Source of the DNA: Deltaproteobacteria bacterium | GTDB lineage: Bacteria; Myxococcota_A; UBA9160; SZUA-336 | Reading direction: 5' to 3' | Length of the DNA: 34,050 nucleotides | Assembly: GCA_019311115.1 (NCBI GenBank) | Contig: JAFDDB010000022.1 | Span: 1 to 34,050 of the forward strand | Part shown: piece after piece, positions 17,037 through 19,683 of the stretch | How positions within the stretch are numbered: the first letter of the stretch is position 1 | How the letters are laid out: the number at the start of each line of letters is the position of its first letter | Program-made: the position numbers and the translations under genes | Notes under the pieces: generated by a model | What the model was told of the DNA's origin: nothing | Databases searched by the model: none | The model's input: only the letters and a program-made list of their open reading frames with translations

Positions 17037-17303
17037 TTGCTCGAAACGGCACGCAAGCAGGAAATCATCTCCGAGTTCGGCAGCAAGCCGGGCGACACGG
17101 GGTTGTCCGAGGTCCAGGTCGCTCTGCTGAGCGAGAGGATCACGGGGCTCACCGCGCACATGCAGGTCCACAAGAAGGACCACCATTCGCGCCGCGGCCT
17201 GCTCCTGCTGGTGAGTCAGCGTCGAGCGTTGTTGGACTACCTGAAGGGCAAGAACGAGGATCGCTACCGCGCGCTGATCGAGCGGCTCGGAATTCGCCGC
17301 TAG
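17037..17303 (+). CDS. rpsO: 30S ribosomal protein S15
   Basis: An 88-residue primary 16S rRNA-binding protein. The hallmark [12 protein letters not shown] is present, followed by [12 protein letters not shown] and the C-terminal LIERLGIRR; length matches the 88-89 residue family. The track lists a start at 17013, but TTG 17037 yields the typical N-terminus ([15 protein letters not shown]) and is preceded by GAAGGGGG (17025-17032). A TTG start on a ribosomal protein gene is uncommon and may keep translation low or regulatable. S15 represses its own translation in E. coli; no equivalent operator was identified here. Confidence 0.97.
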
Positions 17304-17334: not shown

Positions 17335-17353
17335 GCCGGACATCCCGTCCGGC
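17335..17353 (+). terminator. Hairpin after rpsO
   Basis: GCCGGAC-ATCCC-GTCCGGC is a perfect 7-bp hairpin with a five-base loop, 32 bp after the rpsO stop. It lacks a U-tract, so it may be a weak terminator, an mRNA 3'-end stabiliser or the first element of the pnp leader. Confidence 0.4.
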
Positions 17354-17373
17354 AGGATCAACAGTGGATGCGA

Positions 17374-17433
17374 GGTGTGGGATGAGCGATGGGCAGAGCC
17401 CTCGCCGGCACTGCCCATCGCTCATTCCGCATC
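17374..17433 (+). promoter_or_regulatory. Long double-stranded hairpin in the pnp leader, probable RNase III site
   Basis: ATGAGCGATGGGCAG (17382-17396) pairs perfectly with CTGCCCATCGCTCAT (17411-17425), and pairing continues outward to 17374/17433, giving 23 uninterrupted base pairs with three G-U pairs. The 14-base loop can form three further pairs (GCC/GGC). In E. coli the pnp leader carries a long hairpin that RNase III cuts and PNPase then destabilises (established autoregulation). The same position, length and gene context suggest equivalent control here, which is an inference. Confidence 0.6.
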
Positions 17434-17474
17434 CCCCTTCCCAGCCCGATCCCCACATCTCGTACCGAAGCAGT

Positions 17475-17500
17475 TGGGCGCGGCAAAAGGCCGCAGCCCA
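17475..17500 (+). promoter_or_regulatory. Hairpin directly before the pnp ribosome-binding site
   Basis: TGGGCGCGGC-AAAAG-GCCGCAGCCCA folds into ten base pairs with one bulged A. It ends two bases before the GGAGAGAG Shine-Dalgarno (17502-17509), and so could modulate ribosome access or protect the processed 5' end of pnp mRNA. Confidence 0.5.
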
Positions 17501-17514
17501 TGGAGAGAGATGTC

Positions 17515-19683
17515 ATGGAGAAGGTAGAACTGGATCTCAACGGCAAGCCGTTCGGGATCGAAACAGGCCGGCTGGCCAAGCAGTCGAACGGGTCCGTCGT
17601 CGTCACGTATGGAGCGTCGGCCGTGCTGGTCACGGTCAACCGCGCGAAGCCGCGCGAGGGAATCGACTTCTTCCCGCTCACCGTCGACTACGTCGAGAAG
17701 GTCTACGCGGCGGGGCGCATCCCCGGCGGGTTCTTCAAGCGTGAAGGCCGGCTGACGGAGAAGGAGATCCTGACGTCGCGGTTCATCGACCGCGCGCTGC
17801 GCCCGCTCTTCCCGAGCGGCTACCGCGACGAGACGCAGGTCACGGCCACGGTGCTGGCCTGCGAAGATGGCTGGGACACGGACATGCTGGCGTTCGTCGG
17901 CGCGTCCGCGGCCGTCATGACCTCGGACCTTCCGTTCCCGGGTCCGATCGGTGCGGTGCGCGTCTGCCGCGCGGACGGCAAGTTCGTCGCGAATCCCGAC
18001 GTGGAGACCGCGGCGGGCGCCGACATCAACATGATCGTCGCGGGCAGCCGCGACGCGCTGGTGATGGTCGAGGGCGGCGCGGACCAGGCGGCCGAGGCCG
18101 ACATGATCGCGGCGCTGCGGTTCGCACACGACGCGATCCAGCCGATTCTCGACGCGCAGGACGACTTGGTCCGGCGCGCCGGCAAGACCAAGATCGAGGT
18201 CTCGGCTCCCGAGACCGACCCGGACCTGCGGGCGAAGATCGAGGGACTGGCGCTCTCGCGCATCCAGGAGGCCAGCCGTATCGTCGACAAGAAGAAGCGC
18301 TATGGCGCGTTCGACGCGCTCGAGGCCGAGGTCAAGTCGCAGCTGTCGGCCGAGTTCAAGTCGGCGCCGCGCAGCTTCGGCACGCTGGCCGACGTCGAGA
18401 AGGCGCAGGCCGCAGCCAAGAAGTACGGCAAGCAGGTCGGCGAGACCCTGCACGACGTGCGTGCCGAGGTCATGCGAGCTCGCATCCTGGACGACAGCAC
18501 GCGCATCGACGGTCGCGGCCTGACGGACATCCGGTCGATCGAGTGCACGGTGCCGGCGTACCCGAGGCTTCACGGCTCGGCGGTCTTCCAGCGCGGCGAG
18601 ACGCAGGCGCTCTGCGCGGCCACCCTCGGTGGCGGACGCGACGAGCAACTGATCGAGGGCTTGCAGGAGACGTACTACAAGAACTTCTACCTGCACTACA
18701 ACTTCCCGCCGTTCAGCGTCGGTGAGGTCCGGCCCCTTCGCGGTCCGAACCGCCGCGAGATCGGCCACGGTGCGCTCGCAGACCGGGCCATCCGCGCGGT
18801 CCTGCCGGACGACGAGGACAACCTCTTCACCATCCGGCTCGTCAGCGAGGTGCTCGAGTCCAACGGATCGTCGTCGATGGCGACGGTCTGCGGCGGCATC
18901 CTGGCGCTGATGGACGCGGGCATCGCGATCAAGGCTCCGGTGGCGGGCATCGCCATGGGCCTGATCCAGGAGGGCGATCGCAACGCGATCCTGTCCGACA
19001 TCCTGGGCGACGAGGACCACCTGGGCGACATGGACTTCAAGGTCGCGGGTACACGAGAGGGCATCACGGCGATCCAGATGGACCTGAAGATCGAGGGTCT
19101 GGACTGGAACGTGATGGAGCGGGCGCTGGCCCAGGCTCGGGACGGCCGGCTGCACATCCTGGACTGCATGGAGCGGGACACCCGCGAAGAGCTGCCGGGC
19201 TTCGCCGCACGGACCGAGCTGTCGCGCTACGCGCCGCGCACGGTCACGCTGTGGATCAAGCCCGACCGCATCCGCGACCTGATCGGCCCCGGCGGCAAGG
19301 TGATTCGCTCGATCCAGGAGGTGTCCGGCGCCAAGATCGACGTCGACGACTCGGGCAGGATCAACATCTTCGCCCCGAACGGCGACGCGCTCGACCGCTG
19401 CCAGAGCATGGTCGAAGACATCACGCAGGAGGCCGAGGTCGGCAAGCTCTACGTCGGCAAGGTCAAGCGCGTGACGGACTTCGGCGCCTTCGTCGAGATC
19501 TTCCCCGGCACCGACGGCCTGCTGCACATCTCGGAGCTGACCGAGGGGCGGGTCGACCGGGTCGAGGACGTCTGCGTCGAGGGTGACGAGGTCATGGTCA
19601 AGTGCCTCGACGTCGACCCGAGCGGGAAGATCCGGCTGTCGCGCCGGGCGGCGATCGCGGAAGGCGCCGCAGCCACGAGCTAG
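17515..19683 (+). CDS. pnp: Polyribonucleotide nucleotidyltransferase (PNPase)
   Basis: A 722-residue phosphorolytic 3'-5' exoribonuclease, a trimer and usual degradosome component. Order: first RNase PH domain (KPFGIETGRLAKQSNGSV), alpha-helical linker, second RNase PH domain (RIDGRGLTDIRSIECTV, FQRGETQALCAATLGG, and the metal-site region GDEDHLGDMDFKVAGT), KH domain (DLIGPGGKVIRSIQEVSG) and S1 domain (DFGAFVEIFPGTDGLLHISEL). The track starts at 17389 inside the leader hairpin; ATG 17515 gives the family N-terminus and has GGAGAGAG six bases upstream. ATG 17500 is possible but lies in the hairpin stem. The leader structures suggest post-transcriptional autoregulation. Confidence 0.97.
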   Translation: MEKVELDLNGKPFGIETGRLAKQSNGSVVVTYGASAVLVTVNRAKPREGIDFFPLTVDYVEKVYAAGRIPGGFFKREGRLTEKEILTSRFIDRALRPLFPSGYRDETQVTATVLACEDGWDTDMLAFVGASAAVMTSDLPFPGPIGAVRVCRADGKFVANPDVETAAGADINMIVAGSRDALVMVEGGADQAAEADMIAALRFAHDAIQPILDAQDDLVRRAGKTKIEVSAPETDPDLRAKIEGLALSRIQEASRIVDKKKRYGAFDALEAEVKSQLSAEFKSAPRSFGTLADVEKAQAAAKKYGKQVGETLHDVRAEVMRARILDDSTRIDGRGLTDIRSIECTVPAYPRLHGSAVFQRGETQALCAATLGGGRDEQLIEGLQETYYKNFYLHYNFPPFSVGEVRPLRGPNRREIGHGALADRAIRAVLPDDEDNLFTIRLVSEVLESNGSSSMATVCGGILALMDAGIAIKAPVAGIAMGLIQEGDRNAILSDILGDEDHLGDMDFKVAGTREGITAIQMDLKIEGLDWNVMERALAQARDGRLHILDCMERDTREELPGFAARTELSRYAPRTVTLWIKPDRIRDLIGPGGKVIRSIQEVSGAKIDVDDSGRINIFAPNGDALDRCQSMVEDITQEAEVGKLYVGKVKRVTDFGAFVEIFPGTDGLLHISELTEGRVDRVEDVCVEGDEVMVKCLDVDPSGKIRLSRRAAIAEGAAATS

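Follow-up and report, generated by a model that had tools for sequence, protein, structure and literature searches.

A conserved stem in the rpsO-pnp leader of an uncultured, deltaproteobacteria-like class as a candidate autoregulatory RNA element

Autoregulation of polynucleotide phosphorylase (PNPase) through a leader cut by RNase III has been studied in few lineages. The rpsO-pnp gap of the window, by which the whole analysed stretch of 34,050 nucleotides is meant, raises the question of whether such a leader occurs in a further, distant lineage. The gene order on the plus strand of the window was nusA-infB-rbfA-truB-rpsO-pnp, and all features described here lie on this strand. The upstream gene, rpsO, encodes ribosomal protein S15 (17037–17303, proposed TTG start; Pfam Ribosomal_S15, E 1.2e-35), and pnp (17515–19683, ATG start at 17515) encodes a PNPase with two RNase PH domains, KH, and S1. 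The gap from the rpsO stop (17303) to the pnp start codon is 211 nt long and contains the Shine-Dalgarno-like sequence GGAGAGAG at 17502–17509, and a search of the gap for intrinsic-terminator-like or sigma-70-like sites found none. The genome of the window encodes RNase III (TIGR02191, 220 bits, E 4.6e-65). The PNPase tree placed the window among Myxococcota and Thermodesulfobacteriota, in a position without support, and the class carrying the stem is described only as deltaproteobacteria-like and uncultured.

Folding of 17335–17500 yielded exactly the three hairpins that the first-pass annotation had proposed, of 7 bp, 23 bp (26 pairs with the loop extension), and 10 bp. The minimum free energy of this region was −94.5 kcal/mol versus −61.1 ± 4.5 kcal/mol for dinucleotide shuffles (z = −7.35; 0/200 as good). 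The long hairpin H2 (17374–17433), which is the proposed RNase III target, consists of 23 contiguous pairs between the arms 17374–17396 and 17411–17433, a 1 × 1 mismatch, three further pairs (17398–17400 with 17407–17409), and a 6-nt loop (17401–17406), giving 26 pairs in total. Among the 23 contiguous pairs, 20 are Watson-Crick and three are G-U, and the duplex has the length of two helical turns or more that is expected of an RNase III-processed pnp leader. The palindrome occurs at one place in the 4.17 Mb genome, with its own reverse complement as the sole other match. The 10-bp hairpin H3 (17475–17500; one bulge, z −2.39) lies 5' of the Shine-Dalgarno region and ends two bases before GGAGAGAG; it recurs in part of the window's family, a recurrence that does not establish its conservation. 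The 7-bp hairpin H1 (17335–17353, GCCGGAC-AUCCC-GUCCGGC) is located 3' of the rpsO stop and has no U-run. A GC-rich hairpin within the first 60 nt after the rpsO stop was common to many relatives, with differing sequence; across 40 leaders its mean z was −1.54, and 19 leaders were below −1.5. Hairpins of the H1 type may indicate where a separate rpsO mRNA ends.

PNPase could be located in 53 of 60 related genomes, and the upstream DNA was taken for 40 of them and later for 2 more. Of the 40 leaders, 39 had an rpsO match upstream of pnp in the same orientation, and the gap between the two genes measured about 180 to 440 nt. Most of the relatives' leaders contained a stem with the common foot UGYGGGA ... 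UCCNGCAU. The 3' foot of the stem was typically 100–110 nt upstream of the pnp start (range about 83–167), so that the distance of the H2-type stem to pnp is kept while the rpsO-pnp gap varies. Alignment of 27 of these stems, all from families other than that of the window (A1), gave a consensus of 23 pairs with a bulged base after 11 bp and internal mismatches. A covariance model, R1, was built from these 27 sequences only, with the window's family left out. R1 matched the window at 17368–17440 with 32.8 bits (E 2.5e-7). Seven further leaders of the same family were available, and R1 recovered six of them, missing only the divergent L087.

Whole-genome searches with R1 matched 43 of the 60 relatives, and coordinate comparison placed each match beside pnp, directly upstream of it. 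Within the class, 67 of 91 genomes were matched, a lower bound as the large scans used strict filters and missed four same-family stems from a smaller search. Two of the 67 matching genomes showed two places, and both are assemblies with 6–8% estimated contamination. In a phylum-wide sample, R1 matched 30 genomes, all of this class, and 0 of the 149 sampled genomes of the other classes of the phylum. A pattern scan for the stem in 80 named genomes recognised no copy, and R1 found none on 21 loci of those genomes; many leaders among the 80 contained other long inverted repeats of unrelated sequence. The H2 of the window belongs to an RNA element whose conservation extends over one class.

The first-pass annotation had suggested a search for covarying stems in relatives, and such stems were found. 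Double changes, with at least one change on both sides, were evident at 12 of the 23 pairs of A1. Standard pairs were formed by 94.8% of the A1 cells, and the observed values were reached by 0/500 shuffles and by no slid version of the alignment. Among the modelled pairs, G-U cells numbered 72 versus 8 A-C cells, and forward matches of R1 scored well above reverse matches. Therefore, selection acts on the RNA of the pnp strand rather than on DNA or on an antisense RNA, and the stem structure is selected in the pnp-sense RNA.

Several stem positions were invariant or nearly so in the class, including the foot UGCGGGA and UCAUACGCGAAG. In families other than the window's, much of the stem sequence was conserved beyond the needs of pairing, together with the bulge and the mismatches. 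In the window's family, the consensus bulge and mismatches were absent and the stem pairs ran uninterrupted, and its stem is read from the alignments as a derived sub-type. The element was absent from families f5 and f6 and from the single members L087 and L109. The element is not indispensable, because some members of the class do without it. In f5 (L127, L128) and f6 (L096), the stem is lost or replaced, and the rpsO-pnp gap of f5 is short; these two families provide a natural contrast for the role of the element. In the leader L104 (G022), tandem copies of a GC-rich unit (GGCGAAGCCGGGCGGCCATCAGGCCGTCTTCC) have lengthened the loop of the stem to considerably more than 100 nt, while the feet are kept.

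In this class, the H2 element is most likely the equivalent of the pnp leader through which PNPase is autoregulated with RNase III in E. coli and Streptomyces. Its position, its single copy, its conservation across the class, the compensatory changes, the selection on the sense strand, and the presence of an RNase III gene were all observed. The proposal in the first-pass annotation, that a distant lineage may possess an independent or conserved counterpart of the E. coli leader, is supported by a single-copy, covarying stem in the pnp leader of most class genomes and by the RNase III gene. Cleavage by RNase III, feedback by PNPase, and the sign of the regulation are carried over by analogy from E. 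coli and Streptomyces. In E. coli, the 5' UTR of pnp is cut by RNase III, which leads to decay of the pnp mRNA (PMC9032294). RNase III of S. coelicolor cuts the hairpin between the two genes, and PNPase activity is raised 2–4-fold in an rnc null mutant (PMC10126417); repression of PNPase by RNase III has been reported in B. burgdorferi, S. pyogenes, and C. jejuni (PMC8708148). By this analogy, the rpsO-pnp mRNA would carry a cis-acting structured pnp leader, the long H2 stem of which would most likely be cut by RNase III. The cut would split rpsO from pnp and turn the pnp mRNA into a target of PNPase. The upstream strand would stay paired to the new 5' end, and by degrading it PNPase would lower its own synthesis.

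Three other explanations of the stem could be considered. It could be a sequence-specific operator, at which a bound protein (PNPase via KH/S1, S15, or a further RNA-binding protein) blocks translation and RNase III is unneeded. The invariant and nearly invariant positions, UGCGGGA and UCAUACGCGAAG, speak for this, since a generic RNase III substrate should require fewer of them. However, the window's family has a perfect duplex in which much of the sequence was replaced while length and place were kept, and a duplex substrate fits this better, which leaves the operator an unlikely explanation. Conservation beyond pairing, together with the bulge and mismatches of the other families, may nevertheless mean that a specific protein binds the stem, instead of or besides RNase III.

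The main task of the hairpins could also be to create the 3' end of the rpsO mRNA or to shield it, as a terminator, an attenuator, or an exonuclease block. The close position of H1 behind the rpsO stop and its recurrence in many relatives agree with such a role, but the missing U-run and the lack of any terminator-like site in the gap do not, and H2 stays at a steady distance from pnp while the gap length varies more than twofold in the leaders measured. This explanation, improbable for the leader as a whole, may hold for H1 and does not hold well for H2. Lastly, the near-perfect inverted repeat could point to a dispersed repeat or a DNA-level element, such as a REP-like sequence or a protein-binding DNA palindrome. 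Such an origin has next to no probability, since the palindrome occupies one place in its own genome and a single location, next to pnp, in almost every class genome that matched, and the bias of G-U over A-C cells indicates selection on the RNA of one strand. A dispersed palindrome missing from the pnp leaders of relatives, which the first-pass annotation had named as the case against its proposal, was not what the genomes contained; as a single-copy, pnp-linked sequence, the stem is contradicted by the data as a dispersed repeat or REP element, and this candidate was rejected.

The RNase III/PNPase leader, as the preferred explanation, may take a special form in the window's family. The 5' foot CGAGGUGUGGG (17371–17381) can pair either within H2 or with a distal strand, CCCACAUCUCG (17452–17462), which is its 11-bp complement with one G-U (duplex z −4.4, 0/500 shuffles). 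Conservation of this strand is confined to the window's family. Six of the seven family members showed a foot-distal pairing that hardly any shuffle equalled (p 0 to 0.004). L088 has changes on both strands and keeps most of the pairing (p 0.054); the comparison of foot and distal strand for covariation covers seven sequences, one of them changed on both strands. No clear case of this pairing was found in 29 leaders of other families. The distal strand could also pair with the Shine-Dalgarno region GGAGAGAGAUGU (17502–17513), in which GAGAUGU (17507–17513) is complementary to ACAUCUC (17455–17461) of the distal strand, as the inverted repeat I9. With the foot held in the hairpin form, the predicted probability of this pairing was 0.72 in the window, 0.64, 0.77, and 0.81 in three relatives, and 0.03–0.41 in the remaining three. 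The genome's own Shine-Dalgarno window ranked in the top three of 41 for the distal strand in four of seven genomes and outside it in the other three, a ranking weakened by the purine-rich Shine-Dalgarno sequences, which favour any CUC strand. A role of the distal strand as an anti-Shine-Dalgarno is, on these predictions, unproven.

These pairings suggest a strand-exchange switch, put forward here as a tentative and rather doubtful model. The foot would leave H2 for the distal strand, which would otherwise pair with the pnp ribosome-binding site. A cut by RNase III would free the 5' strand, so that the distal strand would be captured and pnp translated; degradation of the 5' strand by PNPase would leave the distal strand free to occlude the ribosome-binding site. 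According to the predicted energies, the intact leader favours the hairpin form over the foot-distal pairing; therefore, any relevance of the distal pairing would be limited to the folding process or to the cleaved leader. If the model is true, PNPase would sense itself by eating an anti-antisense strand, and the second pairing partner offers a concrete, testable variant of an enzyme sensing its own activity.

Comparison with Rfam 15 revealed only sub-threshold matches in the window, nearly all to microRNA-precursor hairpins, and a known Rfam family was ruled out as the identity of the element on these sub-threshold matches. No paper describing the element was found among the open-access papers searched. 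The kind of element, a structured pnp leader, is known, while the class-specific stem modelled by R1 matches no family of Rfam 15 and supplies an RNA family absent from it. Alphaproteobacterial pnp leaders (L023, L024, L026, L033, L039, L040, L042, L047–L049, L051, L054, L056, L063, and L069) have in common another long stem, the foot of which, GCAGGATYGC ... TCTTGC, resembles that of the class. Eight loci of this group were searched and gave no Rfam 15 match, and this stem may be another undescribed lineage-specific pnp leader.

Actino-pnp (RF01688) is a structured pnp-leader RNA restricted to Actinomycetales, which was found by comparative genomics and described as cis-regulatory and not as a switch (Weinberg 2010, PMC2864571). 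The resemblance to the present element lies in the restriction of a structured pnp leader to one clade. The window remained unmatched by its model up to E 5, and a scan of 30 genomes gave no matches, with the positive controls likewise unmatched. In S. coelicolor, the rpsO-pnp hairpin is located between an rpsO-proximal terminator hairpin and pnp, and its cutting by RNase III lowers PNPase (PMC10126417, PMC5872136). The window likewise has an intergenic hairpin between an rpsO-proximal hairpin and pnp. However, the S. coelicolor hairpin is cut at a 4/4 internal loop, whereas the 23 bp of the window stem have no internal loop, and the first hairpin of S. coelicolor is a true terminator, whereas H1 has no U-run.

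The closest comparison is with E. coli, the leader of which is autoregulated by RNase III and PNPase (Regnier and Portier 1986 and Jarrige 2001, as cited in PMC5872136 and PMC3997798). The gene order, the place of the leader, and the presence of an RNase III gene are shared, and folding of the 246-nt rpsO-pnp gap of E. coli predicts a similarly long stem, with about 26 pairs. In contrast, the two leaders have no recognisable sequence similarity, and R1 does not reach even the other classes of the phylum. The Rfam family SraG (RF00082) matched E. coli at 164 bits and gave no match in the window or in four class relatives, and the S15-leader family of the E. coli locus gave no match here. While cleavage has been shown in E. 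coli, it is expected by analogy for the window stem. The element is best regarded, from its sequence and its place, as a positional counterpart of the E. coli leader rather than a demonstrable homologue, because its sequence and sub-structure are class-specific and it matches neither the Rfam families of the E. coli locus nor Actino-pnp. A covarying, class-specific element at the same place suggests that the control logic has been kept while the RNA has been rebuilt lineage by lineage.
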